A stretch of 64,000 bases of DNA from Haematococcus lacustris (lineage: Eukaryota > Chlorophyta > Chlorophyceae > Chlamydomonadales > Haematococcaceae). Both the position numbers and the translations under genes were made by a program. The notes beneath the pieces were generated by a model that was given only the letters and a program-made list of their open reading frames with translations, did no database searches and was not told the origin of the DNA. This document shows positions 1-22,246 of this stretch, piece by piece (the first letter of the stretch is position 1; each line of letters opens with the position of its first letter). The stretch lies in NCBI GenBank assembly GCA_030144725.1, contig JASKMD010000020.1:5412703-5476702 (forward strand), written 5' to 3'.

Positions 1-3000
1 ATGGTGTGTGCCAATTTCTTATGTTGATTCAGGGCCTTGTCCAGTTGCTCCATCCACCTCGAGTCCGCACAGTATTTGATTTCTACGATGGTGATCCTTT
101 TAATGGCTTTGCCTCGTTTGCCCGTCTTCTTTTGTGGCGCCACCACGAGTATGTCTGGTCTGGTAGTGTTTTTGGTCGCTGTTGGTTTCAGGCCGAGTGC
201 CCGTAGTATGGTGTGTAGTGAGTCGTTAGGGAGGTCAAGGTTTTCTCTTGCGCCCTTCTCCCAGCTGCCGGTGTCCGCAAACCGGATGCACCCGCCCAGG
301 GTTCCTTTGCTGATGGCTTTGGCGATGAGGCGGCCAGCACCGTTATGCCTTTCTTGCACGAGTGGCAGGGTCTCGCTGCAGCCCGAGAGGAGGTGTGTGG
401 CACTGTCGGCCTCCCCACAGAGTGGGCAGCGGTCGTCTGTCACCTGCTTCCAACGCATAGCTAGCTTTTGGTTGTAGAGCCCTCCAGTACGGTAGAGTAG
501 GGCGGTCCTTTGCGCAGGGGTGGAGATGGTCGCATCGGTCATCACTCTTTCGCCCGCTCCTTTGGCCGCGGCTTTGGTGATATCTTGGTCATCTGGTAGT
601 AGATGCTGTCGACAAGATCTTGGTTGGCGAGACCTAACTTGTGCTTGCTGTGCATGTGTGCTCGCACGCTTTGTCGGCAGTCCGGCAGCGGGGCGAGGGT
701 TTTGCTATCGGTCCCGTGGTTGAGCCAGATGCCCCTCTCTTTAGGTATGGTCGGGTGGTACCCTAGAGTGTTTGCCTGCTCCGGGTGTAGCGCTGCGTGT
801 TTAGCAAGGGCATCTGCGCCTTCGTTGCCGATGATGCCCGAGTGTGCCTGGACTTTGTAGAACTGGATCGTGTCGGGGCTGTCGATGATGAGGGTGGCAA
901 TGTCCGTCAGGATGTCGTTGTGTCTATGATTGATAAGGGACATCGGGTTAGCGAGAGCTCGACGGATCTGGTAGAGAGAGCAGAGGCTGTCGGTGGCGAT
1001 GCGTCTGGCCCCCGCTTTGAGTGCCGCTTGTATCGCTGTGAGTTCTGCCTTGTTGATGGTGTTGCTTTCTAGGTCGTTCATCGCAATGGTAAGTAGGGCG
1101 TTGCTTTCCGGGATATAGACCCCCGCCCCGACGCGCGCCGGGTCTGGCTCGGATGTCTTAATGCAACTACCGTCAGTGTACGCTACGGTGGTCCATTCGG
1201 TGATGGCCATCCGTGGTAGCGTGGTGGAGTGGTGTGTGAGTTGGTGTTGGCTGCGTGTGTGCCCCAGCGTGGGTAGAGTCCTGTCGAGCGGGAGGCGGAG
1301 GTGCTGTTTGTGGCCACTGGGGAGAGTGGCTGGCTGTTTTTGATTGTGGGGTCTGCGAAGGAGAGGGTGTGTCTCCCTGTCCGGGTGTAGGGCAGTGGCT
1401 GTGCCAGCCATCCATCCTTGTGGGTTGCCTTTCGTGGTGAGTAGTTGCCCTGCCTCATTCCATATGACGTAGACGAGGAGGGTGGCGTGTTTGCCAAGTT
1501 TGGAGCCGTTGGTATTGTTGAGGGGTATGCTGGCCAGGTGCTGGCAGTACTCTGGGTACCGTCTCAAGGTGTCAATGTGCTTGGGGTAAGAGATGCCCTT
1601 TTTACCAGGGATTAACATGATGGCGGCCATGGCCTCCTCCTGGTGTGCCGAGTGTATAGCATGGTTGACGCATTTCAGGGCCACCGCATCATTGGTTGGT
1701 ACATTCCATGTGGATAGCCCAGTGTGACGTACAAGTAGGCAGTTGTGGTGTGCCCCAAAGGCCGTGTCATTGATGTCGGGGCTCCAGTAGGTAGTGGTTT
1801 CCGGTCTGACTGTGAGTGGATCAGCCCACCTTTGGACGGTACTGGGAAAGCGTCGTGTGGTGTGTAGAGTGGCAAGGGCTTTGTCTTGTGCCGCTCTCAT
1901 GGGGTGGTGGTTGCTCTGTGTGTCGTGTCTCCTTAGGAGGGCCACCAGTTCTGTGGCCAGGTTGCGTGTGTGTGGTGTGTGTTGTAGCCAAGCGTGTAGG
2001 TGTTGGTGTTGCTGTTTGGTTAGAAGGCCTATTGTGCGGCCCGACTCATCGTGAACCGTTACATGTTGCACTAGGTCGTGCTTGGGCATGATGGGCTCTC
2101 CCGTGCTGAGGTTCATCGCGGGGGTGGTCATGTGGGGGTGCAGTTGGAGGAAGGTTTCGCATTTGCCCGTCCCGACGATGTCCGTCTGCGGGTTGATGGG
2201 GTACGTGTGGAAGGTGGCCTTCGAGTGAAGGTTGGTGCACCGGGGTAGCCAGGTGTGCGGGTCCGGCAGTCCCTGTCGGGTGTGTGTTGGCAGCTGTGTG
2301 TCAGGCCGCGCGTATCTAGCTTCTTGTATCCTCTTATTTTCCTCTTCATAGTCGCTGCGTCGCGCCAGGTAGTCCAGGTGTGCCGTGATGAGAGGTGCCG
2401 GTTCGAGGGTGGGGCGCCAGTGAACTCGTATGAGGTCCGAGTGCGCTGACATACGCATAGTCGTTTTGAACTCGTTGCTGCCAAACTTGCATATTGGGCA
2501 CAGCCAGTGGCCTGGTTCTTTGTGTCCCGACATGAGGGCTTCCTCAAGGCAGGCTGGATGGTAGGCCCTCTTGCAGTTGTGGCACATTGGGTTGTCTCCT
2601 CTTGGTAGCCAGCATAGCTCACATGTGCATACGTCTTTAGCCTCTTCCCTGCTGATGGGTTTTATGTGTGTGGGTGTATAGCCTTCTTCTGCACATAGTG
2701 GTAATGCCCATCTATCTATGACTGTGGGCTTCCAATGCACCTTGTAGTAGCTTTCTTTGTTGATGCCGTCCCATTGCCATCCATCTATGCTGGTGATGGC
2801 CTCTTGGTGGCCGTACATGGCCCCTAGTATGCTGCCTAGGTCCTTGGGTTTACAACGGCAGGCTTTATCCACCTTCCAGCTGGAGAGCCCTGGAAGGTCA
2901 AGGCCAACTGTGCGCACTATATCCTTCGGGATAGTCTGGATCTGTCTGCCCTCAGTGTTCCGTTTCGTGCCCGCCTTGGGTCGGGCGGGTTTCGTTGGGG

Positions 3001-3345
3001 GCGATTGGGTTTCCCTGTTCTCTCGCCTTAGCAGCCGGGAGCTACTCTTGATGGCCTCCTGGGCTGCGGGTGGTTGTGTTGCATGTTCGGTCACGTGCGT
3101 CGCTTCGGTCGGTGTGGGCTTCTTGGCAGTCACGTACGCCCTAATATCAGCGTAGCGGTGTTTTGTGTCTTCCTCGACGTCGGTTGGTGCAAGCTCCGTC
3201 AGACCCGCGCCCATGGTTTAACTAGTCTTTGCGCAGCGGGCAGGTCTAGGGTGGTGTCTCGTTTGGCTGCGATGTCTTTCGCTTCTGTTGTGGTTGGGCA
3301 TCTGTCCTGGGTCGCCATGGTCGTTAGTCTGTTGAGAGCGATGTA
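1..3345 (-). mobile_element. Dualen/RandI-like non-LTR retrotransposon A2, 5'-truncated, 3' end outside the window
   Basis: This is the C-terminal third of a dual-endonuclease LINE, related to but clearly different from the complete element A1 at 5941-22246. Homology to A1 ends abruptly at 3345, in the codons for a YIALN segment that lies about 700 residues before the RNase H domain in A1. That is a typical 5' truncation. The next base, 3346, is the 3' terminus of an L1-like element (B copy 1), so the two insertions abut with no spacer. The 3' end, tail and target-site duplication lie left of position 1. The copy is dead because of two single-base frameshifts. Confidence 0.9.
1..3345 (-). pseudogene. 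A2 ORF2 remnant: PHD finger, RNase H, CCHC and restriction-like endonuclease
   Basis: The longest open frame runs 3214-542 (890 residues). It has a C4HC3 PHD finger near 2640-2490 (CELC, CHNC, H-PAC, CPIC) and an RNase HI domain (YTDGS, NKAEL, ATDSL, GNEGADAL) near 1180-800. Upstream of 3208 homology continues in another frame (LDLPAAQR), which fits a one-base deletion. A second one-base deletion near 570 moves the reading into a frame open to position 1. That frame carries the CPLCGEADSATHLLSGC zinc motif and the endonuclease core RPDI followed by EIKYCADSRW. At the codon where A1 has an amber stop (7815-7817), this copy reads TAC. Confidence 0.9.
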
Positions 3346-3637
3346 AGCACTACGCCCAAACACAGCGGTCCACACACCCCAAGCAAAGGTCCACACACCC
3401 CAAGCAAAGGTCCACACCACCCAAGCAACCCCCTCCCTAGGACAACGTCAAGACACTCCCCCACACCAACGCCCTCCACCCTAGCTCTAAACACCTCCCC
3501 AGACCCTTGCTCTACTCACCTCCCCACACAAGCCTAAGCCCAACCCCTCGACCTGAAGCCTTGAACCCTTCCCCCAACACTCAAACCAAGACCACCTAAG
3601 CCCCCGGTCCCCTGACACCCAGATAAACCCCCGAGGC

Positions 3638-4744
3638 CTAGCCCTCCCCACCCACAGAACGCACGAAGCCCCCACCAGCAACCCTGCAGCTCAGGCTGGC
3701 TCGACGGGGAAGGGGACGGGCCACTGCAAGGAGAGGCGAACAAACAGCTCTCCCCCCCCACCGCGCCCTGCCCTCCCCCTGCCTAGGCCTCCCTGCTGCC
3801 CTCTCCTCCTCCACTCCTCCTGCCCCAACCCTCCCCTCTGCCCCCTCCTGCCCTCCCCTCCGCTCCCTCTCAGGCTGCTTGGCAAACCAGCCCCCCAACG
3901 CCTCGGGCCACAGCTGGTCAAAGTGGGCAGCGTCCAGCTCCGGGTCCTTTCCCTTGAACCAGGTGGAGGGCACAGCGCCGCAGAGGCCCACGCGGATGTC
4001 CCTCCCCACCCGATGCCAGTCCCGCTTGACGGCCGTGGTGAGGGTGGAGATGACCTCCTCCACAACCCGCCTCGCCACCTGTTGTGGCTGCAGGGCTGTA
4101 GCGGCTCCCGAGCTGCGGAGGCGCCACACTGCGCCCAGGTAGGCAACGCGCAGCCGCAGCCACAGCAGGCTGTCAGGGGGCTGAAAGGGGGGGGCCTCGC
4201 CGCAGGTGGGGCGCCCACTATGGAGCAGCATGGCGTCGCCTGAGGGGGGGCGGGTGCCTGTGAGGCGGCCGTACACGTCCAACACCCACTCCCTGGCTGG
4301 GACCACGGCGGGGCAGGTCAGGAAGGCGTGGGTGAGGGTCTCCAAGTGCCCCGGCTGGCAGAAGCGGCAGGCGGAAGAGCCCGGGGCAGCCGTACCCTTG
4401 AGGATGTGGCCCCACAAGGCCCCCACCATGAGGCTGGCGTGAAGCACCCGCCAGGCCACGATGACATGCTCCCGACGGAGGGTGGGGTCTAGCAGCTCCT
4501 TCCACACCTTCGCACACGGCTGGCCCGCCTGAACACCCACAGCCAGCTGGTCCACGGTGTCGGCCCGGGGGGCGGGCTGAGCAAGTGGCTGCCTGCCCCC
4601 ACGCCGCTGCTGGGCCTCCAGCTGCCGCTCAGCCTGCTGGGCCGCCCTCATCTGCGGCGAGGGTCGCTGGTGCGCCCTGGCGGAGGTGTCAAGCCAGCGA
4701 GGCGGTTGGCTTCCATGCACCTCCTCGGGGAGCCGCTCCTCCAC
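3638..4744 (-). pseudogene. L1-like ORF2 C-terminal fragment with zf-RVT zinc motif (B copy 1)
   Basis: This 368-codon frame has the hallmarks of the C-terminal zinc-binding region of plant and algal L1 ORF2 proteins. WRVLHASLMVGALWGHI is followed by C-x2-C-x-H-type spacing (CRFCQPGHLETLTHAFLTC), then LWLRLRVAYLGAVWRLR and a DW-x-RVGRDIRVGLCGAVPSTW segment. It is cut off from the reverse-transcriptase part by frame breaks. The same frame occurs at 25065-26171. The last 80 or so codons are Gly/Arg-rich low complexity and may be out of frame. Confidence 0.8.
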
Positions 4745-5940: not shown

Positions 5941-5967
5941 GAAGAAGAAGAAGAAGAAGAAGAAGAA
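5941..5967 (-). repeat. (TTC)9 3' tail of element A1
   Basis: Nine GAA units on the plus strand are (TTC)9 on the element's sense strand. They lie directly against the target-site duplication, so A1 ends in a trinucleotide tail and not poly(A). Confidence 0.85.
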
Positions 5968-6062
5968 GACTACTCCGGCGGAGCCGGCGTGTATTAAGGG
6001 AGGAGCTTCCGCCTGGGGCGCGGCCTGCTCCCACCACCTAACCTTAGAAGTGGAGAACCCCT

Positions 6063-9000
6063 TCAGCCCCCATCCTTGACACCTGCCCTGAGTCTGTAGC
6101 TGGTTCTGGCTATGCTATGTGAGCTTATGACCGCATGTCTAGTCAGTTTATTTAGCAGTTTAGTGGTGTTAATTTGCGTGATGCCTATGGCTTCCATGTG
6201 TAGCTTGGTATGTGTGTTGTAAGTAATGCCGCCTATTCCCAGCAGAATGGGTCTGATTGTGACAGTGTGTCCTGCTGCTATGATGGCTTCTGCCATGGCA
6301 GCGTGTTGCGTGGTAGCGTTGTCTAGCTGTTCGGCCCATCTTGAGTCAGCACAGTATTTGATTTCCAGCAGGGTGACGTGTTTGGTTGACGCGTTCGATC
6401 CTTGCTTCCTTTTCTTCGTGTTGTTGATCATGATGATGTCCGGGCGGGTGGTCGTGTTGGTGTCCCTGGCTGATAGGCTCAGATCTTCTAGAGCCTTGCG
6501 TAGCGTGGCGCTGGGTAGCTCGATGCCTTCCGTCTCGCCTCGTTCGTGGCTGCCGATGTCCGCGAACTTGATGCACCCTCCTTGGGCTCCCTTGCTGATA
6601 GCTTTCACGATTAGGCGCCCCGCCCCGTTGTGTCGTTCCTGTACTAGTCCTGCGGTGCGGCTGCAGCCTGAGAGTAGGTGTGTCGCGCTGTCGGCCTCCC
6701 CGCATAGCGGGCACCGGTCATCCGCCGCCTTTCCCCAGCGCATGGCCAGTTTCTGGTTGTAGAGCCCACCCGTCCGATAGAGTAGGGCGGTCCTCTGCGC
6801 CTCTGTTGGAATGCCCGCGTCGGTCATCACTCTTTCGCAGGAGCCTTTCGCCGCTGCCTTGGTGATTTCCCGTGTCATCTGGTAGTAAGTGCTCTCTTGA
6901 TTGGCGAGGCCGAGTTTGTGTTTGTTGCTCATGTGCGCGCGCACGCTGTGGCGGCAGTCCGGCAACGGGGTGGTGACGTTGAGATCGCTTGTTGTGCTCA
7001 GCCATGCGTGTTGCTCGGTGTGCCTGGGGTTGCAGGGGCCCCGCGTTGTGGCTTGCTCTGGGTGCCTCGCCGCGTGCTTGGCCAGTGCATCAGCTCCCTC
7101 GTTCCCGATGATGCCGGAGTGGGCGCGGACTTTGAAGAAGTGTACCGTGTCCTGGCTGTTAGTCAGGATAGACGCTATCTCTGCCAGTATGTCTTTGTGG
7201 CGGTGCGTGCGGAGCGACATCGGGTTGGCGAGCGCCCTGCGTATCTGGTAGAGTGAGCAGAGGCTGTCGGTGGCGATGCGCTTGGCTCCCACCTGCAGCG
7301 CTGAGAGAATAGCTATGAGCTCTGCTCTATTAATGGTGGTGTCGCCGCTTAGGGCAATGGTGTTCCGATCGTCGCTGGCCGGCGTGTATACGCCTGCTCC
7401 CACTGATGCTCCCTCGGTGCCTTTGATGCAGCTTCCGTCCGTGTATGTCACCTTCTTCCACTCTGGTATTGCTCTCTGTGCGTGGGTGGTGGGCTGGGAG
7501 GCAGGCTGGTTAGTTTGGCGTGTATGCCCCGTGGAGGGGAGCTCATGGTCTGCTGGTAGGCCTCGGTGTTTGTGGTGGCCGCTTGGTAGCGGGGTGGGCT
7601 GGTTGTGTTGTGAGGGCTTTGCCAGAGCCGGATGTGTCCTTATTCGTGGGTGGAGTGCAGTGGCTGTGTTGGCCAGCCAGCCCTGTGGGTTCCCATGTGT
7701 GACGAGCTGTTGCCCAGCTCGGTTCCAGACAATGTAGATGGTGAGCTTGGCATGCTTGTCAGACTTGACGGCGGCGTTGGGTTTGTTGAGAGGGATGGTG
7801 GCTATGTGTTGGCACTACTCTGGGTAGCTTCTCAGCATGTCTATGTGTTTGGGGTACGAGATGCCTTTCTTGCCAGGAATGAGCAGGATGGTGGCCATAG
7901 CCTCCTCTTGTGTGGCAGAGTGTATGGCATGTCTGATGCATTTCAGGGCTATGGCTTCCTCTGCTGGCACGTTCCATGTGGAGAGCCCTGTGTGTCTGAC
8001 AAGGAGACAGTTGTGGTGTGCCCCATAGGCTGTGTCATTGATGTCTGGGCTCCAGTAGGTTGTGGTCTCAGCCCTGACTGTGAGTGGGTTAGCCCATCTC
8101 TGGACCGTGCTGGGGAAGTGGTGAGTGGTGTAGAGGGTAGAGATGGCTAGGTCTTGTGCTGCTTGGATGGGTTGGGGGGTGTTGTGCGTGTCGTGCCTTC
8201 GTAAGAGGGCCACCAGCTCGGTGGCATGATCCCTTGGGTGTGGGGTGTGTTGCAGCCAAGTGGCGAGGTCTTGCTGTTTGCTTTTAGTGATCAGGCCCAC
8301 TGTGCGCCCTGCCTCGTCGTGGGCTACCAAATGTGTGGGGAGGCTGTATTGGGGCAGGGTGAGACCCTGGCTCCCTTCACTCGTGGCTGGTGTGATGATG
8401 TGGGCGTGCTGCTGGATGGTGGTTTCGCATCTCCCCGTTCCTACGATGTCAGTCTGCGGGTTGACGGGCGAGACTTGGAAGATGGCCTTTGAGTGTAGGT
8501 CGATACAGCGGGGCAGCCATGTGTGGGGGTCGGGTAGGCCCTGTCGGGTGTGACCTGGGAGGCCCGCGTCGGGTGGTGGGCGTCCCGTCCCTTGCCTCCT
8601 ATTGTTCTCCGCGTCGTACTCCTTCTGCTTGGCGGTGTAGTCTATGTGCGCTTGGATGAGCGCCTTGGGTTCGGTTGTGGGGTGCCAGTGGACCTGCAAC
8701 AGGTCAGTTGCCGCTGATTGTCTCATGTCGCCTTTGAGGTCGTCCGAGCCGTAAGCGCAGACTGGGCAGAGCCAATGGTTATTGGCAGTCTTCCCAGCTA
8801 GGCCTGTCTGAGCTAGGCAGGCTGGGTGGTAGGCTCTCATGCAGCTGTTGCACATTGGGCTCTCCCCTATAGGTTCCCAGCATAGTTCGCATGTGCAGGC
8901 GTGTTTGGCATCTGCTCTGCTAATGTCTTCTGTGTGCATGGGCGTATATCCTTCTTCCTTGCACATCTGGAGTGCCCACTTCTCTATAATGGTGGGTCCC

Positions 9001-12000
9001 CAATGCACGTTGTAGTAGCTTTCTTTGTTAATGCCGTTCCAGTGCCATCCATCGATCTTGGTGATGGATTCTTGGTGATCATACATGGCTCCTAGCGTGA
9101 TCCCTAGTTCCTTGGCATTGCGTTCGCACGCGGCATTAGCTTTCCAGCTGGGGAGGCTATCTAGGGTCATGATGGGTATGTGTATCACATCCTCTGGTAT
9201 GGTCTGGATGTGTCTGTCGTCTGCTTGTCTCTTACTGCCGATCTTGGGCGGTGGTTTAGGTTGTGGGGTCGCGGGTGGTGGGTTGAGGGCTTTGTTCCTG
9301 AGCCGAGAGCTGCGCCGTCGGGTGTCGTCGGGTTGATGGGCACATTCCGCAGTGGGTTCTTGTGCGGGTGGCTGTGTGGGAGGCTGCTTGGCTACCGCGT
9401 AGGACCTGATGTCAGCGTAGCGGTGTTTACTGTCCTCCTCGGCTATGATGGGTGCGAGTTCTGTCAGGCCCGCGGCCCAATGCTTGATCTTTCTTTGTGC
9501 AGCGGGCAGGTTTAAGGTGGTGTCGCGTGTGTCTGCAATGGCTTTCGCTTCTATCGCGGTCGGGCACTTATCCTGGGACGCCATGGCCGCCAGCTTGTTG
9601 AGGGCGATGTAGTGTTTTTGCTTGACCTTGTTGCCGAAGCGATCCTTCAGCATCTTTCCCGATATGATGTATGTGTCTTCGGCAATGGCTTGTTGGAGCT
9701 CATACGCATGCTTGATACCAAGGCTCTTGAGGCATGTGATGCTTGCGTTGACTATGTCATGTGGGAGGGGGCTGTTGTCCTGTGTGATGAGCTGCCCAAG
9801 TAGTTTGGTTTCCTTAGGGTACAGTTCTTCTCCTTGGTGTGTGGCCTTGAGCTGGGCTGTGGTCGCATGGAGGAGTTGCCTGGCACGAAGGGTGTGTTGC
9901 AGCATATTGATCATGCGGTGTCCGTGCTTGGCAGCTTGAGCGTAGAGCCAAGTGATCTGTTTGTGGAGCATGCTCCTGGTTATGTGGGCATGTGTGTCAT
10001 CCGCAGATTGGAGGCTATGCATGAGGGCTGTGGTGTTCCTTGCATGATACTCCTGGGCTGTGGAGCTGATGCCCAGGCCGAGCTTGTCTATGTCCTCCCT
10101 GATGACGGCATTAGTTGTGCCTAACGGTAGCCTCAGCTTTTTCTTGATGCATTGGTTGACTGCTCTGTCGTATAGGTCTAGGTCTCCTGGTGTGCACGGG
10201 ACTACGCAGAAGCTGTAGGCCAGGCTGGGAATGATGGCTGTCTTGATGATGTGGATGGCTTGTCTGGCGCTGGCGAAGGAGCGCCGTAGTCTCTCCAACT
10301 TTTGTTTGAGTTGTGCCGCCATGGCCATGTGTTGTGGTTTCCAGTTGAGTGTCATGGTGAGCAGGACTCCTAGGTAGGCGAAGGGTGCGGTTGGGGGGAG
10401 GTAGGTGACCGGCTTTCCTTGCAGCCGCACGTGTTGCAATTCCCTGCGGGCTTGCTTCTCCGCGTCTGCTAGTGTGCTGCACCTGCCGGACTGGTGTGCC
10501 TTGTGGAGTGCGGCTGTGGCGAGGGTTTTACTGTGTGATATGATGAGGTGGCCCCAATCGGAGTCGGCGGAGAGCTTGTCTGCCTGGCAGCGTAGATTGC
10601 TGATCGAGTTGCATAGGATGGCGATGTCATCCGCGTAGTCGATGCTACCAATTGTAAATCGTCCGGCGCTGTCGGTTGTCTCTGATGTAAACTTGTACCC
10701 CCTCGCTCCTACTTGGAGCCAGCGTAGGAGGGGTTCGATATAGATGAGGAACAGGAAGGGTGAAAGCGAGTCTCCCTGGATGGTGCCCCGGTCGACGGGT
10801 ACGGGGTCGGTGTGGCCGTAGGGAGTTTTGAAGCGCGTTGTGGCGCCCGTGTATAGGTCCTTTACAGCGTCGGTAGCGTCCGTGGGGAAGCCTAGGTCGT
10901 GCATGATCCATAGTAGTTTGTCCTGGCAGGTGGTGTTGAACGCGCTGGTAAAGTCGACAAGGAGCGCGTAGATATCTGTCTTGGCCAGTTTGGCATCTTC
11001 GAGAGCCATGACTAGCATCTGTAGCTGCTGGGTGGTGTCTCTGTGGGACCGGAAACCAGCTTGGCAGTTGCTGAGCATCCCGTTGGCTTCTGCATATTCG
11101 TACAGTGACTTGGTGATGAGACTGGTCCAGAGCTTGTAGATAGTGTTTGCCAGCCCTACAGGTCTGTAGGCATTGAGATCTGTTTCCTGGCCCTTGTCCT
11201 TGTAAAGCAGGCAGGTGTCACTGGTTTTCCATGCTGTGGGTGTGCAGCCAGTGGCCCACATGATGATGAACAGCTGGTGGATAGTGTCCCTCATCTCCCA
11301 TGGCAGCATCTTGATGATCTCGTTCTCAATGCCGTCTGGCCCTGGTGCTTTGCCTCCTGCCAGCCTGCTGAGGCATTCTTGAAAGCCTGCTTTGTCCATG
11401 ATGGCTGTGTGCAGCCAGTGTATATTTTTGCAGGTGTGCATTGAGAAGGGGTCGTCCGCTTTGGCGCGGGCCCAGGGATAGTTTCTGGTCAGCGTGTTGG
11501 TGTAATGGCCGGTCTTCGGGTTTGGCGGCGTCAGCTTCTGTCCGTAGGCGGCGGTGATAATCCGGTTGAGGTCGGCCGGGGCTGTGCAGGTTTTCTTGGT
11601 GTCGGGATCCGATAGCGCCTGCAGGCCCTTGTGGTCGGTGCGGGACGGGCGGAGAATGTGTTTGTTAGCTTTCTTAGGCTGGTTGCTGATGAGTTGTTGC
11701 ATTCTGACTCGGGCTTGCGCGATGGCGAGAGCGGAGTCGTCGTCGTCCAGCTGGTGTATTTGGTCGCGGTAGGAGTTGGTTAGCTTGGCGAGTGCGGCCG
11801 GCACGTGATCCTCGGTTGGGTCATCTCCCTGGCGCGCTTGTATCGCCTCCCTCACCTCTGCGTTGGTCGTGTCCGTCTCTGGGATGAGATCTCCAATCGT
11901 CGGGTGGGAGCCGTTTTGTTTGAATAGCAGTCTTGCCTGCCGGCAGAGGTTCCTAGTAGTCTTGAGCTTTTCCCCTAGTGCCAGTCTGATCCTGCACATG

Positions 12001-13247
12001 GTTCTGCGTTGGTAGTGTTGCCCTCCTCTGGTTAGGGTCTTAGTGTTGCATGTCTGCATGGCAGTCCTCCTGCAGGTTTCCAGGAGGGTAGTGAGCATAG
12101 TAGATGCGGTGTCCACAGCCTCCCTGGCTGTGAGACCTGCCACTTGTGCTAGACGTTGTGGCTGGTGTGGGTTTGCCTTGTCTAGCGTGGCCAGGAAGTG
12201 GGTGGCTTCTGTGTACATGGGTGCCAGGTAGGCTGTCAGTCGTGCATGTAGCTGTGGGGCGCCTGAGCTGGGCTGTTGCACAGCTAGGCGGTAGGCTTCC
12301 CTGTCGTTGTTGGTAATGGGGGTGGTGAGGACGGTATGGCATTGCTGCTGGGGTTTGCGTATGGCTGCTAGGTTTATGCCCAGTCTGGCTGTGGTTAGGG
12401 TGGCGGTGAGTGGTCTGTGGTCACTGAGGTACGCGTGCGTGTCGACGTGGGTGCGGTGCTCTGATCCGTGTCGAGCATCGCGCGTCAGGATGGCGTCGAT
12501 GCGGCTGTTGCAGTGTGGTTGTTGGTAGGTCCAGGCCCGGTCGCCGGGGTCGGCCTCAAACAGGAGCAGCTTGTCAGCGAACTTCCTCATCATGCGGTCT
12601 TGTGTATACTCGGTGTGTCCATATCGATCTTCTTTTCTCATCGTGGCGTTGATGTCTCCCGCCAGAATGAGTGATCCGGGAGCGCGTTCTGTGGTTGTTC
12701 GTATGTGTTCCTGCATTTTCTCTCGCAGCGGGATCGCGTCGTCGTTGTCTCCTGAGGGCCAGTACGTGGCTACGATGGTAAGCTCTTCACATTTGTGCTG
12801 GCGTAGGGTCAGGATCACGCATCGAGTGTTTACTTCCGCGTCTGTGCACGGCGGTAGCATAGTGGCGTGCGTCTGGATAGCAAGATCGTGCTTGATGCCT
12901 ATGAGTACCTCGCTGTGACCTCGGTGGCGGTGGACAATATAGTTGGGCATAACTCGTTTTAGCCATCCGCAGCTGGGGTTATTGCTCTTTGGTTGGGTCA
13001 TAGTCTCAGTGAGAATCAGAATGTCCGGGCTCTGCGTGTGCACTAAGTGTAGGACATCTTTTCTGGACCTGTGGAGGCCTCTGACGTTGAAGGTAGTGAG
13101 GGTGATGGTTGTCCGGCCAGGTGTGGGCTGTGGCATCTGGCTTGGGAGGGTATTGCGTTGGCTTTGGGCTGTTGTGTCTTCAGGTGGGTTAGCTGTTTGG
13201 TAGGCGGTAGGGGGCAGGGTGGGGGCTACATTGAGGTATTGGTACAT
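6063..13247 (-). CDS. A1 ORF2: APE, reverse transcriptase, PHD, RNase H, CCHC, RLE polyprotein with one internal TAG
   Basis: From ATG 13247 this frame is 2395 codons, interrupted only by TAG at 7815-7817; the same frame stays open to 6063. Domains with approximate residues: AP-type endonuclease 50-275 (NVRGL, LTET, GDINAT, RIDAIL, SDHRPL); reverse transcriptase 630-900 (GKAPGPDG, YRPVGLAN, QAGFR, DFTSAFN, QGDSLSP, YADD); PHD finger 1449-1500 (CELC, CNSC, H-PAC, CPVC); RNase HI 1933-2070 (YTDGS, NRAEL, ATDSL, GNEGADAL); zinc motif CPLCGEADSATHLLSGC near 2165; restriction-like endonuclease near 2250 (RPDI, then EIKYCADSRW). It copies and inserts the element by target-primed reverse transcription. 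The amber codon would separate RNase H and RLE from the rest; A2 has a tyrosine codon there. Confidence 0.93.
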
Positions 13248-16200
13248 TGAAGTCTGCGTGTGCGTGTCTCTAGGCAGAGCCCTGGGTTTAGGTCGCCGTA
13301 TGGTGCTGCAACTGGTGGGACGTGATGATGCGGGCCGTGTAGTGTTGCGTTGCGTGGTAGGAAGGGTAACCGTGTGTGCTGCTTGGCGGTTTGGCGGCTG
13401 CTGGGTGGGCTTAGCCGGTGGGTGGGCATCCTCTTGTGGCGTGTCTTTGCGCTTGGTGCTCGTTTGTTGTGAGTGTCGGTTCTGGGTGTTGGCCGATCTG
13501 CATGGGGGCTGTGTGCGGGTGTATCCCGGCCTAAGTTCGTGAGGTCCACATAGGTGGTGCGTAGGTGTTGTTCCAGTTGCTCCGTTGTGGCGCGGGTGGT
13601 AGGGTCAGCCAGCCAGCATAAGGGCTCAATGAGGTTGGTGTTTTGCGCGGTCCCTTTTCTGATTTGGACAAGCCTGCCATGCAGCTGACTCCAGGCTGCC
13701 GGGGTGTCCAGCCGCTGTGGGTGGCCCCGTTCCGAGTCCAGCCAGTGCCAGGCGTTGTCCATGTGGCGGATGGTGGTGGCGTGGTTGTCGGTGAAAAGGA
13801 TGGCAGCTACTGTGTTGGTGTGGCTGTCCGGCTTGCCGGTGGTCCCAGTGAGGAGCTCTCGAGTGATGCTGCCGTAGGGTAGTTCCTGTGTTGTTGGGCA
13901 TAGGTGTAGGTCTTTATGGTAGTGGTATAGGTAGTGGTTGATGGTGGATATGGTAAAGTTGCCTTGGTCGTGGTAGATGTGTGGGAGATTGTTGTGTAGT
14001 GGGATTTGCCTATGTTCTTGCCTTGCCTTGGTGGCCAGGTCTTGGATGTGCGTGTCTAGTGTTTTGCAGTGGGTGATGACGTCTTCGGGGTTAATCATTG
14101 GTTCTCCCATGGCCATGTTAATGGCGTGCACCAAGCAACACTTCTTGTGTTGGCTTTCCCAGTAGGGCATATGCGTTTTCCGGGGGTTGGTGGGCCCTGG
14201 CCTTGCCCCGATGCATACCGCTGCCGCTGTGAAGGTGTGACGTGTGGTGCTGATGATAGGCCCAAGCCTGGCCCTGGTGCGTGCCGCTGTCATAGCTGCT
14301 GTGGGGTGCGAGATAGTGGTAATAGTTTGTATCTCGCAGGCTGCATGGTACGCGCGATTGCCGGTAACCTGCAGCGGTGTAGGGGTCGTCGCTTCGGAGT
14401 CAAGGAGGTACCATGTATCGTTGTGTTTCCTGATCGCCATGCTATGGGCAGGGGCTTTGCATAGGAAGGCGGTGATGCCATGGGCTTCGGCCAGGGCGTC
14501 GAGGTGGCGGGTCGACCAGTCCCTTCCAGTTTTAAGGTGCGCCACTGTGTGTGTGCTGAGGCCGTAGTGTGATGTCAGGTAGAGATTAACGACTGTGTCG
14601 TTGCACGCGCCTTCTTCGTCTCTAGCTAGCGCCCACATCTGGTCGCCTTGTCGCGCGTTGAGTTCCGAGGTGTGGAAGTTGGCCAGGTCTTGGTTACTTA
14701 GCCATGGGTGACCTACTACCATGTTCAGGGCATGGATTTGGCAATGGTGGGCTACTTGTTTCTCAAAGTAGGGTCCCTCAGGGCCAGGGTTTGGTTCTAT
14801 GTCACCTGCTGCCAAGAGCAGCCAGCCGATGTGTGTGAGGTAGTTAATGGCTCCCATGGTCAGCCTCTTAATGTTGTCGATGGTGTAGGTCGTGTGTGGG
14901 TTAATACTGTAGGTGACGTATGCCTGGATGGTTGTGTTGTACTGGTTTATGGTGTAAGTTTTGTTGTTAGTCCTTCCCATTAGGTAGGTGTGGGTCTGGT
15001 GGACCAGGTGTCCTATGGTTACCCACCCGCTGCTGGTACCGTCTATATTGTGTAGCCAGTTGTAGGCAGTGGTGTGGGTCGTTGCTTGTAGTTTAGTGAG
15101 TTTCTTGCGTTGTTTTCTCATGCATTTGTGTGACTCTATTTTGGTGGGTAGCTGGGGGTGGTGACGCCCAGTTCGTATCATTATCCACATGATGATGCCC
15201 ATGGTGACGATGTCTATCAAAGGGCATGTCTGGGTGTTGTGCAGGGGTTCCCACTCCGCATGTCCCATGGGGGGTCGCAGATTGGCAACAATGTGGCGGG
15301 CCCCCTTACAGTTCACAGGTTCACTGTGCATGGGTCGTCTGCTACGTCTGGCGAAGACTACCGCCAGTGCATGATTATCACTACAGCATTCTGGTTGTCT
15401 ACGGGCTGTGCGGCTCTGAAGCATTGTGGGGGCTGCCGGGGCTAGTGCATGTGGTTGGTGTGGGCTGGTACTGTGGCTGGTAGTATGCGCACTGTGGTTT
15501 CCAGTTCTGCTTGGGCACCAGTCCTCCCTTGTGGTGCTGGCCTTGCTGTGTAAGCTGAGGTCCCTCGAGTGGGCCTTTAACAAGTCCTGCGGGCCATGGC
15601 CCCTATGGGTCGATGCCGTGTCATTGCAACCATAGTCTGTGTGGCCTTGTCCCCTTAGCTGCTGCCGGTCTCCCCATTCTCCTGGGTAACCTGTGGTCAG
15701 GCAGGTGGCAGTGTACAGTGTCGTGTTCCGCATGGTGGTTGTTGCCATGGGGGTGTGTCGTGGTTGCTGTGGTCTAGTGTGGTTGTATGTGCAACTGTGC
15801 ATGGGTGTAGGGAGGGCGTGGCTCACCTCCCCGTCCGCCATCTTAGCGTCCTCTGACGCTGGGAGGGGTCCGGTCTCCAGGCGGGGTGTTCCTGCCGCGG
15901 TGAGCTGCTGCTCTAGACTGCGGCTGCTGGCCAGGTGCACTGTACTCATGCGAGGTCGCTGTGCCGCTCTCTCGGCACTGAGTGGTGCGGCCAGGGGGTC
16001 TCGAGCATCTGCTGCCACCCTCCGAGCACCCCACACCAGGCCTCCAGTAGTGCCTGCGGCACATTGCGTGTGTCGTCGTGGCATGTTGCGTTTGATAGCA
16101 GTGTCGTGTAGTGGTTTGTCTCGGCCCACCTGGCAGGGAAGGTGTGTGGCTAGGAAGGGGTGGGTACCCCTCCCCTGTTCCAGCCTGGTCCCTTGTTGTG

Positions 16201-18951
16201 AATGGGGTAAAGACCTGTGCGGGGGATGGCAGCCAGCGGCATTGTCCCATTGGGTGCCTGCTTTGGGTAGATGCTCAGCTCTGGTATGATTGTGCATGGT
16301 AACTAGAGGGTTGAGGTTGGGGTGGGGTTGTGTGTTAGCACCCTGGTCCCTTACCGGGTTGATGGCGCCGCCAGCCATGGTCTGTGGCAGGTTATCTTCG
16401 CTAGCACCTGCAGCCCATGGCGTGTAGCATAGGGGTATCGAAGAGGTAGTGTTGTGGTTTTGTGTATAGTGTGTTCTCATCCTAACCCATGCATGCATAT
16501 CTGCTTGGGCAGCCGTACGCACCAGGCATAGTGCGTCCTGGGAGGTTCGAGAGCTCCTCCCCAGGCAGGTGCGCGGTGCCCGTGGTACCGCCTGCTTGGG
16601 GTGGGTCCTGTGCATCAGATGGCAGCGGTTGGGAGCATTGTAGTTGAGTAGGGGGGCAGAGAGTTGCTGAGCATTGCTAGTGGTGGATCCAAAGGTGTGC
16701 TTAGGGCGGCTGGCTGGTGTGCCCTTGCCTGCTCTACTAGGGTGGGTGTTTGGTAGTGGCGCACTTCTACTACATACCATGATAGTTGCCCCTAGCTGGT
16801 AGCTCGTAGCCTGGGCTGTAGGGTTCGCATCCATCGCGCCAGGGGCTACTAGCCGTCCTGCGCACAGGATATTTGTATATTTATGGCATGGGGTGCTGGT
16901 GGGTAGGGTGGGTGTGCAGCGGCCATTCTCATTACGCCTCACCTCCATTGAGCCCTTCTGGCTGAGGGATGGGTGCAGGTGGGGGTCGGGATGCCTGTGG
17001 TCAGGTGAGGGGTCATTGTGGGTATGGCACAGTAGGATGTTATGGTGGTGGGCATAATGGCCTAATGGGATAGTCCTCGGATGGGGCTGTCCTGAGTGTG
17101 GGTGAGTTGCGGGTTCTGTCCCGCTTACCTGTCGCAAGAGCTCACCCATGGTACCAAGGTGGTCTTCGTCCTCAGGCGCGTGGCCTGCAGGGTTCCCTTC
17201 ATGCCTAGCCCATGCGACCTGAGTCGGCTGTTGGGGCTGGCGGGCATTGCCGCTGGCTGATGCCCTTCCTCTGCCCTTGCTGCTGACGCCCCTGCCTGGT
17301 CCCCTGCCCATGTCTCTGCCGGAGCCGGCTGCAGGCGCACTGCTTGGCAGGGCCTGCTGCACGGCTGCATCGATGGTGGAGTCATCCAGAGTGCTGAGGC
17401 CCTCAAGGAGATCAGCGTAGGTGCTGTCCTGCTCGGCCACCACAAGAGCATGGCGTGTTGGGGTGGCACCTGGCAGGCTGAGGGCTGTTGGTATGGTGTG
17501 CTTGAAGATATGCACCAGGTTGGGGAGGAGGGTTGCGGTGGGTAGCTCAGTGATCTTTACTAGGGAGAGGGGCCTAGTGTGTATGCCCTCACAGCCTGCG
17601 GGGGGGGGCAGGGTGATGCCGGACTGCACCGCGCCAGCTGCTGTAGCTAGGATGGAGGCTGCCGTAGAGCGGTCAGGTGGAGGTGACCGACGGGAGCCCA
17701 CTGAGATGCTGAGGGTCATTCCCTCGGCTTTGATGGTGCCTACCTCTGGTGTGCAGGCCAGGGACAGAGATACTAGGGCAAGGGAGGCATTGTCAGCCAT
17801 GAGCAGCTGGTTTTCGCGTGGCCTAGTGCCTCGCAGCTCCGCTGTCGTGGCATGAGCTAGAGCCTGCCCTGAGGCTGTGGTGAAGACATGGGTGGGGTTG
17901 GTGATGGCCGCGTGGAATCCCACTTCTGCTCCGGTGAAGGCCAGAAACCTGATGCTGTCTACTAGGCTGTTGCGTAGGCCCGGGTTCTGTGATACCACTG
18001 GCGCAAGAGCTGGGGCCTTCAAAAGCTTGCCTATGCCCACTCCTATGTTGGTGTGTATGGCAATGAGCACAGTGCTGAGGGCTGCAGTATCCTGGCGCCG
18101 CTCGGGGGGAATGCCGTCCACGTTGAGGCTGTACTGCTGACCTGGCTGTCGCTCGGGGCGAAGTGTGATGCAGAAGAGGTTGGGCACGAGGAGCTGGATG
18201 TGCCCCTTCAACTCCCCATTGCTGTTGACCAGGCTGGCATTGGCCTGCTGTATGGCCTGGCTGTTGCTCTGGATCAGCACCTTGTTGTCACCAGCTGATC
18301 GCACTCGCACAGCTAGGCAGTCCAGCCGGGCAGCTTCCAGGCTGGCGCGGGACAGGAAGGTTGCTGTCTCCGCAGGTGTGGTGAGGTTGCCTGCATGAGT
18401 CTTGGTAAGGCTTGTCCCTGTCAGCTGCATCAGGGTCTGCACCTGCTCTGCAAGGGGGGCGTGCCGTAGGTCTGGGATTCCCTGTGACTGCCACAGCGGG
18501 CCATACTCGACTCGCGGCTATGCACACTATGCTGCTGCTGTCCGGGGTCCTGCCTGTCACCTGGCAGGCTGCTGCCCCCCCGTAGCGCACTGTGCCTCCC
18601 TTAAGAAGGTGGGTGAAGTTGTGCACCTTGCGGCCAAGCATGAGAGCCTGCTGCATGGCCTCCCGGTACTGCTCAGCTGGTGCTGAGCATGTGAAGGTGA
18701 CTGCGCATCTGGTGGCTGTGAGGTTGCGGGATGGTGTGTAGCGGGAGGTAGAGTGACTAGTGTTGATGATGGTTAGGGCTGGGGCTGCGTCCTTTGCCAG
18801 CGTGGTAAGAGATAGCACTAACGCCTCCGGTGTGGTGCACCGGTGGAGGTTGGGGCTAAGGGCTGACCGGCCTGCTGAGTCTAGCACATTCAGGCAATGG
18901 CCTGCAATGCTGATGTCGAATGTTGCCCCTGGGGCGATGCAGCTGTCCAGC
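13226..18951 (-). CDS. A1 ORF1: gag-like region, 2A peptide, two Josephin-like protease modules (one frameshift, 5' end in gap)
   Basis: The main frame (to 13226) is open from just downstream of a TAG near 18525. N-terminal coding continues in another frame from about 18515 up to the gap edge at 18951, which implies a one-base frameshift or a recoding site. Visible parts: a gag-like region without zinc knuckles (18950-17350), a Gly/Arg stretch (GRDMGRGPGRG) near 17310, a long His/Pro/Thr-rich linker, a hydrophobic segment then GDIEPNPGP (14806-14780), and two modules beginning EKQVAHHCQIHALN and SQHKKCCLVHAIN. Both keep the Josephin layout Q-x4-C-x2-H-x2-N and a later H-x3-I-R...W-x2-L-D-S. 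The last 22 bases overlap ORF2 in the -1 frame. Function of the modules (ubiquitin or polyprotein cleavage) is inferred. Confidence 0.85.
14780..14806 (-). other. 2A ribosome-skipping peptide in ORF1
   Basis: The codons read G-D-I-E-P-N-P-G-P, an exact match to the 2A consensus D-(V/I)-E-x-N-P-G-P, preceded by the hydrophobic run GWLLLAA usual for active 2A sequences. Separation would fall between the Gly at 14783-14785 and the Pro at 14780-14782. The gag-like part would be released from the Josephin-like part, which would begin with P-E-G-P-Y-F-E-K-Q. 2A peptides are known in some trypanosome and animal non-LTR elements. Confidence 0.9.
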
Positions 18952-19451
18952 NNNNNNNNNNNNNNNNNNNNNNNNNNNNNNNNNNNNNNNNNNNNNNNNN
19001 NNNNNNNNNNNNNNNNNNNNNNNNNNNNNNNNNNNNNNNNNNNNNNNNNNNNNNNNNNNNNNNNNNNNNNNNNNNNNNNNNNNNNNNNNNNNNNNNNNNN
19101 NNNNNNNNNNNNNNNNNNNNNNNNNNNNNNNNNNNNNNNNNNNNNNNNNNNNNNNNNNNNNNNNNNNNNNNNNNNNNNNNNNNNNNNNNNNNNNNNNNNN
19201 NNNNNNNNNNNNNNNNNNNNNNNNNNNNNNNNNNNNNNNNNNNNNNNNNNNNNNNNNNNNNNNNNNNNNNNNNNNNNNNNNNNNNNNNNNNNNNNNNNNN
19301 NNNNNNNNNNNNNNNNNNNNNNNNNNNNNNNNNNNNNNNNNNNNNNNNNNNNNNNNNNNNNNNNNNNNNNNNNNNNNNNNNNNNNNNNNNNNNNNNNNNN
19401 NNNNNNNNNNNNNNNNNNNNNNNNNNNNNNNNNNNNNNNNNNNNNNNNNNN
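18952..19451. other. Assembly gap of 500 N
   Basis: This is exactly 500 undetermined bases, a conventional placeholder length. It falls at the edge of the 114-bp tandem array, so missing repeat copies are likely. The frame relation between the repeat ORF and the gag-like ORF cannot be read. Confidence 1.
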
Positions 19452-21345
19452 TGGAGCTGGGCGTCATGTCTATTGTTAGCCTGCATGTCAGCATGGTTAG
19501 GTGGCATCTCTGTGACAGCCAGCTGGCCATGCAAGTCTGTAGCGGTCAGGGCTGGCAGGTGGTGGTGGGGCTGGGCGCCATGTCTACTGTCAGCCTGCAT
19601 GTCAGCATGGTTAGGTGGCATCTCTGTGACAGCCAGCTGGTCCTGCAAGGCTGTAGCGGTCAGGGCTGGCAGGTGGTGGTGGGGCTGGGCGCCATGTCTA
19701 TTGTCAGCCTGCATGTCAGCATGGTTAGGTGGCATCTCTGTGACAGCCAGCTGGCCAAGCAAGTCTGTAGCGGTCAGGGCTGGCAGGTGGTGGTGGGGTT
19801 GGGCGTCATGTCTATTGTTAGCCTGCATGTCAGCATGGTCAGTTGGCATCTCTGTGACAGCCAGCTGGTCATGCAGGTCTGTAGCGGTCAGGGCTGGCAG
19901 GTGGTGGTGGGGCTGGGCGCCATGTCTACTGTCAGCCTGCATGTCAGCATGGTTAGGTGGCATCTCTGTGACAGCCAGCTGGCCATGCAAGTCTGTAGCG
20001 GTCAGGGCTGGCAGGTGGTGGTGGGGCTGGGCGCCATGTCTATTGTCAGCCTGCATGTCAGCATGGTCAGTTGGCATCTCTGTGACAGCCAGCTGGTCCT
20101 GCAAGGCTGTAGCGGGCAGGGCTGGCAGGTGGTGGTGGGGCTGGGCGCCATGTCTATTGTCAGCCTGCATGTCAGCATGGTTAGGTGGCATCTCTGTGAC
20201 AGCCAGCTGGCCATGCAAGGCTGTAGCGGGCAGGGCTGGCAGGTGGTGGTGGGGCTGGGCGCCATGTCTATTGTCAGCCTGCATGTCAGCATGGTTAGGT
20301 GGCATCTCTGTGACAGCCAGCTGGCCAAGCAAGTCTGTAGCGGTCAGGGCTGGCAGGTGGTGGTGGGGCTGGGCGCCATGTCTACTGTCAGCCTGCATGT
20401 CAGCATGGTTAGGTGGCATCTCTGTGACAGCCAGCTGGCCATGCAAGTCTGTAGCGGTCAGGGCTGGCAGGTGGTGGTGGGGCTGGGCGCCATGTCTATT
20501 GTCAGCCTGCATGTCATCATGGTCAGTTGGCATTTCTGTGACAGCCAGCTGGCCCTGCAAGTCTGTAGCGGTCAGGGCTGGCAGGTGGTGGTGGGGCTGG
20601 GCGCCATGTCTATTGTCAGCCTGCATGTCAGCATGGTCAGTTGGCATCTCTGTGACAGCCAGCTGGTCCTGCAAGGCTGTAGCGGGCAGGGCTGGCAGGT
20701 GGTGGTGGGGCTGGGCGCCATGTCTATTGTCAGCCTGCATGTCAGCATGGTTAGGTGGCATCTCTGTGACAGCCAGCTGGCCATGCAAGTCTGTAGCGGT
20801 CAGGGCTGGCAGGTGGTGGTGGGGCTGGGCGCCATGTCTATTGTCAGCCTGCATGTCATCATGGTCAGTTGGCATTTCTGTGACAGCCAGCTGGCCCTGC
20901 AAGTCTGTAGCGGTCAGGGCTGGCAGGTGGTGGTGGGGCTGGGCGCCATGTCTATTGTCAGCCTGCATGTCAGCATGGTCAGTTGGCATCTCTGTGACAG
21001 CCAGCTGGTCCTGCAAGGCTGTAGCGGGCAGGGCTGGCAGGTGGTGGTGGGGCTGGGCGCCATGTCTATTGTCAGCCTGCATGTCAGCATGGTTAGGTGG
21101 CATCTCTGTGACAGCCAGCTGGCCATGCAAGTCTGTAGCGGTCAGGGCTGGCAGGTGGTGGTGGGGCTGGGCGCCATGTCTATTGTCAGCCTGCATGTCA
21201 GCATGGTCAGTTGGCATCTCTGTGACAGCCAGCTGGTCCTGCAAGGCTGTAGCGGGCAGGGCTGGCAGGTGGTGGTGGGGCTGGGCGCCATGTTTATTGT
21301 CATCCTGCATGTCAGCATGGTCAGTTGGCATCTCTGTGACGTGCA
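19452..21345 (-). repeat. Tandem array of a 114-bp coding repeat, about 17 copies
   Basis: The motif CATGTCT(A/G)(T/C)TG recurs every 114 bp, at 19465, 19579, 19693 and so on to 21289. Copies differ by a few substitutions in higher-order combinations (for example LHGQ versus LQDQ, and PPNHAD versus PTDHAD). 114 is 38 codons, so the array stays in frame. The last copy diverges after about 21340 and the first is cut by the gap. The plus strand also lacks stops here, which is a by-product of the repeat. Confidence 0.97.
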
Positions 21346-22081
21346 ACTCTGTGAGGGGCAGCAGGTCAGCATGGGAAGCATGTAAGGGTGTCCCCCGCAG
21401 CGGCCTGGGCTGGTCATGGGGCTGTTCATCCTCTGTTTGGTTGCTGTGGGTGTGTGGGTGCCTGGTGCGGGGCAGCAGGTCAGCATGTAAAGCATGCAAG
21501 GTAGGCTCCCGCGGCGGCCTGGGCTGGTCATTGGGCAGTTCGTCCTCTGGTTGGTTGCTGTGGGTGTGTGGGTGCTTGGTGCTGGTAGCTAGCCAGTTGC
21601 TGCTCCTTGTAGTGTAGCGCTGGGCACAGGTGCACGGACCTCTGTCGATGCAGCAGATACCTTTCTTGGCGAGCTGGGGAATAGCGTTCCTGTGCCTTCT
21701 GTCTGGTTGTCTTATGGCGTCCTGCAGAGCTTGCGTCTCCTGGGTTTTGTTGTCGACCTGGTGGTGGCATACAGACATTGGCATTTCCGCGTCTCGTCCA
21801 TTTAGGCTCGAGCGGGAGTACGTAATGGGAAACCAGGCCATTTGAGGCGTTCGAGTCATTTGAGGCCGATTGCATACTTGTAAATGTGCGAACTCAGTTG
21901 GGAATGATCCTATCATGTCACGCTCGACCCACGCAGGGCCGGTCACCGCCCCCAAGGGGTCCTGTCCTGTTGCCACTGTCGTGTCGGCCACGTTTATGAG
22001 TCGGTCCCAAAAGGTTGCAGCATTTCCCGGGAGAAGCACAATCAGGCAAGCAAACACAAACACCGTAGCCGTCTTCACCAT
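19452..22081 (-). CDS. A1 5' ORF: signal-peptide-like N terminus plus 38-residue tandem repeats (3' end in gap)
   Basis: I start it at ATG 22081; the frame is open somewhat further upstream but without another ATG seen. The N terminus M-V-K-T-A-T-V-F-V-F-A-C-L-I-V-L-L-P-G-N-A-A resembles a cleavable signal peptide. It is followed by about 90 residues of non-repetitive sequence, two imperfect HPHTHSNQ(P/T)EDE units, and then the 38-residue repeat (core LAVTEMPPNHADMQADNRHGAQ... PHHHLPAL). The repeats are His-, Asp- and Gln-rich with no recognised domain. The frame enters the gap at 19452. It may be a separate ORF or the N-terminal part of ORF1. I recognise no family. Confidence 0.7.
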
Positions 22082-22246
22082 CGTCCTGTACCGCCGACCT
22101 TGGACGTTGACCAACTTCACTATGCTCTTTCGACTCGTCGCGTTGCGCCGAGCACGATGTAGCTAGTGGCTTGGGGAGACCTGTAAGCACGCAGGAGAGA
22201 AATCGCTTAGAAAGTTAGGTAGGACAGTTATGCATCGCAGCATTTT

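Follow-up and report, generated by a model that had tools for sequence, protein, structure and literature searches.

The 2005 description of Dualen reportedly lists a cysteine protease, the type of which is left unspecified. What kind of protease would suit a retrotransposon of this sort, and on what would it act? Dualen/RandI elements of Chlamydomonas each pair an apurinic-like endonuclease (APE) with a PD-(D/E)XK-like endonuclease (PMC3636483), encode an RNase H (PMC4640811) and reside in a green-algal host (PMC3747384). Other non-LTR elements show parts of a related plan. Those bearing 2A (L1Tc; APE-type, multicellular hosts) contain an in-frame 2A-like sequence; they are APE-type by the title cited, and the accessible part of the source makes no mention of Josephin (PMC4981915). 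NeSL and Utopia, nematode elements that encode a restriction-like endonuclease (RLE), carry an N-terminal cysteine protease of ubiquitin type in the LINE protein; this protease is Ulp1-like, with 2A unmentioned in the part of that source available (PMC4640811). Among viruses, a survey of nearly 10,000 2A sequences turned up no evidence that plant viruses use 2A in nature, though 2A works in plants (PMC12846837).

The DNA described here (the window) is a stretch of 64,000 nucleotides from the green alga Haematococcus lacustris (assembly GCA_030144725.1, contig JASKMD010000020.1, positions 5,412,703 to 5,476,702), and the features of the element mapped below all lie on its minus strand. On balance, we take the element to be a broken copy of a Dualen/RandI-type LINE, with a long frame predictedly split by 2A and a polymerase half that starts with two Josephin modules, likely deubiquitinases. 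Like Dualen/RandI, it has an APE (12417..13094; Pfam PF03372, E 4.1e-12) and an RNase H (7068..7451; PF00075, E 1e-18), together with a reverse transcriptase (RT; 10368..11177; PF00078, E 4.7e-22). The RLE region, 6120..6713 with an approximate end, was located by translation and motif scan as a zinc knuckle (CPLCGE..HLLSGC) followed by RPDI...LLEIKY; no Pfam model matched there. The co-occurrence of APE (by Pfam), RLE (by the zinc knuckle and RPD...EIK motif only) and RNase H with RT (both by Pfam) in one element assigns it by domain content to Dualen/RandI, as the earlier note had proposed. Between RT and RNase H lies a PHD-like zinc finger (8757..8951; PF13771, E 0.0009, and PF00628, E 0.018, both under the curated cut-off), and the PHD of the relative P0054 is above the Pfam cut-off. 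A (TTC)n tail found by repeat scan at 5941..5969 is a plausible 3' end. The window also contains, at 9..3378, a 3' piece of another member of this family (PHD, RNase H and RLE side; PF00075, E 2.3e-16), and proteins P0005 and P0006 align to it at about 60-66% over 9-3211. Other LINE pieces in the window lie at 3641-4744, 25068-26171 and 27786-29000 (zf-RVT below cut-off; one RT match).

How intact is this copy? Protein models of H. lacustris match the proteins of the window element at up to 98-100%, and comparison with them locates the damage. The window copy changes frame near 18.49 and 13.47 kb, and gene model P0050 reads both places in one frame; P0006 also crosses the 13.47 kb site, placed approximately at 13460..13490 between the Josephin frame and the APE-RT frame, in one frame. 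An in-frame stop at 7815..7817, seen from the end of the open reading frame and from P0005, which aligns through to 6108, leaves RNase H, zinc knuckle and RLE motif all beyond it, followed by the (TTC)n tail. That the RT frame ends in a frameshift had been considered and was rejected, as the same frame end and P0005 alignment place an in-frame stop there instead. These alignments show that frameshifts and a stop interrupt the window copy.

Upstream of the 2A, the 5' part of the element (18890..22120) opens with a hydrophobic N-terminus (Met near 22081, MVKTATVFVFACLIVLLPG), followed by a Cys-containing stretch and His-rich tandem repeats of 114 bp (38 aa) detected by repeat scan inside the same interval, which also contains an assembly gap (a run of N, 18952-19451). 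This N-terminus, called signal-like by hydropathy (peak 2.5), is nearly the same as the start of the longest frame found elsewhere in the genome, that of copy L010. A signal-like stretch with His-rich tandem repeats is unexpected in a LINE. A Gag-like region with an RG-rich end follows at 17129..18950, covered by the P0050 alignment in two frames (18950-18474 and 18511-17129); the label comes from place and composition only, and no Pfam Gag family matched. The spacer at 15275..17128 is weakly constrained and open in the 2A frame, with 0 stops in the window vs 28 and 20 in the other two frames. Its codon usage differs from that of the RT frame, and parts of it are skipped (spliced out) in the P0050 gene model. 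Next comes a conserved leader immediately 5' of the 2A (14807..15274), aligned across subfamilies; the tblastn alignment of P0014 begins at 15274. Between diverged copies, including the window vs L010, dN/dS is 0.26-0.27 in the Gag-like region, 0.36 in the leader and 0.63-0.71 in the spacer, which is free of stops between them despite these high values; for the window vs L010 the Gag-like region has 0.26 and the spacer 0.66-0.68.

The 2A core, GDIEPNPG/P, lies at 14780..14806 (read 14806-14780) inside the minus-strand frame 18442-13226, with the leucine-rich hexapeptide LLLAAG upstream. It agrees with the 2A core (D/G/C/N)(V/I)ExNPGP, and D[IV]E-x-NPGP occurs once in the six frames of the window vs 0 times in 60 mononucleotide shuffles. 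The core was found in 30/30 genomic copies (the best matches among at least 89 rows). Among 33 proteins in which the first module begins at its N-terminus, the window's included, 23 have a 2A within 60 residues upstream; the other ten are seven environmental proteins, two that start within the second module, and P0049, which has a different gene model upstream. The hexapeptide before the 2A is LLLAAG, LLLACG or LLLAGG in 22/23 proteins and VVRIAG in P0027, with LLMAAG and LLMASG additionally present among genomic copies. This upstream context is similar to the LLLLSG-like group in the 2026 survey, a study that found activity in those motif examples it put to the test (PMC12846837). From its motif, the 2A is predicted to make the ribosome skip the Gly-Pro bond. 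None of the seven environmental relatives with a complete Josephin start has a 2A, so the protease does not appear to depend on it; in two of them, P0055 and P0070, the protein starts near the module, and a 2A further upstream could be missed there. A second 2A between the modules (CIGARPGP) was considered and rejected: it lacks the D-x-E-x-N core and falls in an insertion absent from P0001-P0004.

After the 2A come QVAHHCQIHALN and QHKKCCLVHAIN, both of the form Q-x4-C-x2-H-x2-N, with the distal HSMAIRKHNDTWYLLDS and HATTIRHMDNAWHWLDS (His...W-x2-L-D-S). By Pfam and alignment, module 1 lies at 14234..14782 and module 2 at 13598..14173. Gln, Cys, His and Asn/Asp stand in order in both. The proximal motif has 2 matches in the window's six frames, whereas 60 mononucleotide shuffles average 0.017. 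Pfam Josephin (PF02099) matches the frame in two stretches at E 3.6e-19 (69.6 bits vs a curated cut-off of 26), and module 2 alone gives 47.9 bits. These matches, with the motifs from 14806-14780 onward, bear out the proposal in the earlier note that the 2A precedes two modules of Josephin type whose active-site residues are correctly spaced. A profile built from 17 modules of H. lacustris and environmental elements retrieved, among solved chains, ataxin-3 (4.2e-11), Josephin-2 (2.1e-10), bacterial PaJOS (1.5e-8) and a C39-like chain (6e-4); weaker queries (a single sequence, the first profile) reached E 0.07 or worse. Pfam Josephin was matched by 16/17 modules at E up to 1. Could the modules be OTU proteases instead? 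At the same threshold no Pfam OTU family matched the frame or the 17 modules, and no OTU chain matched the 17-module profile, which upholds the earlier preference for Josephin over OTU. A structure model built on five sequences was poor (pLDDT 41); its six best Foldseek rows were Josephin chains (best E 4e-4). VIA-align on the same poor model ranked Josephins no higher than a Yersinia effector, C39 chains and viral DUB chains, so the family is not decided by fold alone; there were no OTU-titled rows among the 50 VIA-align matches listed, which excludes no family. By profile and motif, the modules belong to the Josephin family. Josephin-2 has a Cys-His-Asp triad, as the element modules do (PMC7337049), while ataxin-3 has Asn in place of Asp (PMC7337049, PMC4428445) and its Q9 is the proposed oxyanion residue (PMC4428445).

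Are the active sites maintained? Conservation was scored over 84 module stretches, 38 of H. lacustris module 2, 34 of module 1 and 12 environmental. Counting the stretches that cover each position, the H. lacustris triad is complete in module 1 (Cys 24/24, His 31/31, Asp 32/32) and in module 2 (Cys 34/34, His 37/37, Asp 36/36). Environmental modules keep Cys in 10/10, His in 12/12 and Asp in 11/12, so that retention of Cys and His in relatives, on which the earlier note had staked its reading, holds throughout, with Asp kept as well in every covering H. lacustris module. The Gln is present in 34/34 stretches of module 2 and in only 10/24 of module 1, where the second His is likewise kept in 10/24; since both are changed in 14/24, some subfamilies may possess an altered module 1. 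Two complete Q-x4-C-x2-H-x2-N motifs are present in all 30 genomic copies fetched, one of which has a stop within the modules. Both Josephin modules are under purifying selection. By the Nei-Gojobori method, applied to 10 of the 28 pairs among eight of ten copies read over 16 kb (L008 and L020 left out), dN/dS is 0.12-0.30 in module 1 and 0.16-0.29 in module 2, next to 0.07-0.20 in the APE and 0.31-0.68 in the linker for 9/10 pairs (the tenth has zero nonsynonymous linker changes); dS is near or above 1 in several pairs, where the ratio is rough.

The earlier note had taken the frame with the 2A and the Josephins for a LINE ORF1 from which skipping would release a separate twin-protease protein. 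The first idea does not survive comparison with other copies, and the second finds no support in it: that frame is the middle of a longer one, which in many of them also holds APE, RT and RLE. Copies were sought in the 307.9-Mb H. lacustris genome (597 contigs), where the post-2A protein has at least 89 match rows, six of them with an internal stop; this is a lower bound, since 83 of 1,119 first-look candidates were scored. One scan each of a viral contig and a genome contig collection found no relatives. Among the 30 best-matching copies, in whose choice frame length played no part, 21 can be read without interruption from the 2A through the APE motif SDHRPL; the other nine, the window included, are interrupted before it. 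Upstream of the 2A the frame is open in 28/30 for all of the 500 codons fetched. An open frame of at least 2,880 codons was seen in 42 of the 77 match rows covering both modules in one piece. Ten copies chosen for long open frames were read over 16 kb: nine are open for 2,882-2,906 codons from the 2A proline, with APE, RT and RLE motifs in all nine, and the tenth, L008, stops at +567. The twin protease appears separate in the window because of the frameshift in this copy. The exact RNase H motif YTDGS occurs in four of the nine long-frame copies, and 135-136 codons of the RNase H region could be aligned in the eight copies compared. Between Josephin and APE, the linker measures 155-180 residues in 28/38 proteins.

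The longest frame, that of L010, runs for 5,825 codons; its 2A falls at codon 2,921, and the same hydrophobic stretch as in the window opens with the first Met, at codon 44; upstream of the 2A it contains the signal-like N-terminus, the His-rich repeats and the Gag-like region. A hydrophobic start is present in 4/10 of the chosen copies (L010, L019, L028 and C49:9411639). In L003 and L006 the frame begins after a stop, without the hydrophobic stretch; the upstream frame of L008 reaches the fetched limit, and three of the ten contain runs of N. The signal-like starts differ between subfamilies, and 38-aa His-rich repeats follow them in L010, L019 and the window.

Where did the two modules come from? 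They share 20% identity. The module tree places the first modules of H. lacustris in one group and the second modules in another, with moderate support (78/58 and 81/74). By identity and grouping, the modules are old paralogues; a recent tandem duplication was rejected on the same 20% identity and on the moderately supported grouping of each with its counterparts in other subfamilies. Seven environmental proteins have a complete module start and all seven an RT, with an APE by Pfam in five (P0054, P0055, P0063, P0067, P0070). Two modules are found in P0055, P0067 and P0070, and one in P0054, P0059, P0063 and P0082. The two modules of P0067 and of P0070 group together (94/89), which suggests, at moderate support, more than one duplication. 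The RT of module-carrying environmental elements is 49-55% identical (four proteins). PCIF1 is an mRNA cap methyltransferase, and PCIF1_WW matches appear in the environmental LINE relatives P0054, P0062, P0064, P0065, P0070 and others, with E 5.8e-10 in P0070 and only 0.0045 in P0054. Two proteins filed under Bosea sp. (P0001) and Agrobacterium sp. (P0127) consist of Haematococcus-type retrotransposon pieces and thus probably reflect bacterial assemblies contaminated with algal DNA.

Some subfamilies are far less alike in module 1 than in the RT. Is this an arms race? Fast evolution of that kind was rejected, as dS too is raised where module 1 identity is low; for the same reason, mosaic ancestry explains the low identity better. 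For subfamilies c28 vs c19, dS is 1.33 in module 1 and 0.27 in RT, and this comparison suggests that 5' and 3' parts were exchanged between subfamilies.

What, then, would the 2A and the Josephins do for the element? As judged from its sequence, the most economical function is likely to be that the 2A frees the polymerase half and the Josephins deubiquitinate in its interest. The 2A would split the polyprotein during translation, yielding the upstream half and the polymerase half as separate proteins; the former, made of the hydrophobic N-terminus, the His-rich repeats, the Gag-like region and the leader, would have a different destination from the latter. The Josephins may strip ubiquitin from the element's polymerase, or from host proteins at the site where it works, and this removal would prolong the life of the retrotransposition complex. 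An N-terminal proline left by 2A has potential destabilising effects (PMC12846837). Speculatively, the proline with which the freed polymerase half would begin could be a Pro/N-degron, which would give a reason for a Josephin guard exactly there. A more far-reaching, virus-like plan, in which the structural half of a 2A-split polyprotein of 5,825 codons would be secretory or membrane-targeted and the twin Josephins, paired with the 2A, would erase the Pro/N-degron or other quality-control ubiquitin, seems to us unlikely.

Might the Josephins cut the polyprotein itself? They would then resemble the papain-like proteases of some RNA viruses, the 2A being one of several processing sites, and the frame that encloses the modules, up to 5,825 codons long, may need dividing. 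RLRGG, the tail of ubiquitin, stands twice upstream of the Josephin of P0082 (residues 303-307 and 341-345), a motif that appeared at least once in 38 of 20,000 shuffles of this protein. However, among the proteins scanned RLRGG is confined to P0082; LxGG and RGG are absent from the window Gag-2A-Josephin frame, and the APE-RT frame of the window has a single LAGG (residue 629, immediately ahead of the stretch that matches Pfam RT) and a single RGG (407). Josephins, moreover, are established as ubiquitin-specific enzymes. We regard this reading as doubtful, and polyprotein processing, raised in the earlier note, finds no support in a Gag-2A-Josephin frame free of LxGG. Self-cleavage at ubiquitin-like tails was rejected, as the site is absent from that frame in the window. 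If the target is ubiquitin, are the modules ordinary deubiquitinases? They could bind ubiquitin so as to recruit host factors, or clip ubiquitin tails, as might be expected from the bacterial Josephin relatives PaJOS and BpJOS, titled ubiquitin clippases in the PDB, and from a Gln column changed in 14/24 stretches of module 1. The intact Gln of module 2 (34/34) speaks against this, and Cys, His and Asp are never lost in covering H. lacustris modules, which argues for catalysis; such a role is quite improbable. Still more remote is the idea that the Josephins are functionless host captures, passively carried by copying. Many copies are broken, the window's among them, and single and twin arrangements vary among relatives, but a dN/dS of 0.12-0.30 in both modules, triads without loss in H. 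lacustris, and the recurrence of modules in environmental elements at 49-55% RT identity (four proteins) leave it hardly any room. Release of the polymerase half by the 2A, with deubiquitination in its favour, therefore stays our preferred reading.

How does the element compare with the systems described so far? From Dualen/RandI it is set apart by the twin Josephins, the conserved 2A before them and the PHD-like finger, as well as by a single frame of up to 5,825 codons with a hydrophobic, signal-like start; Dualen itself may share any of these. Among the papers listed by literature searches, none describes a Josephin in a LINE or a 2A in Dualen as far as titles and opening lines of abstracts show, though such a description may exist in print. 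With L1Tc-type elements it has the in-frame 2A-like sequence in common; unlike in them, the 2A here stands at the junction of a Gag-like half with a Josephin-polymerase half. NeSL and Utopia are similar in placing a ubiquitin-type cysteine protease in a LINE protein. With the Josephin/MJD deubiquitinases (ataxin-3, Josephin-2, bacterial JOS) the modules share active-site spacing and a profile match, and they differ in being tandem, only 20% identical to one another and enclosed in a retrotransposon frame. If LINEs do carry deubiquitinases, ubiquitin control of retrotransposition would become testable with an element's own enzyme. Set against the survey of viral 2A, a conserved 2A in a green-algal element is notable (PMC12846837). 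Finally, the union of a signal-like N-terminus, a Gag-like region, 2A, Josephins, two endonucleases and RT in a single frame would make this an unusually complete, virus-like plan for a LINE.
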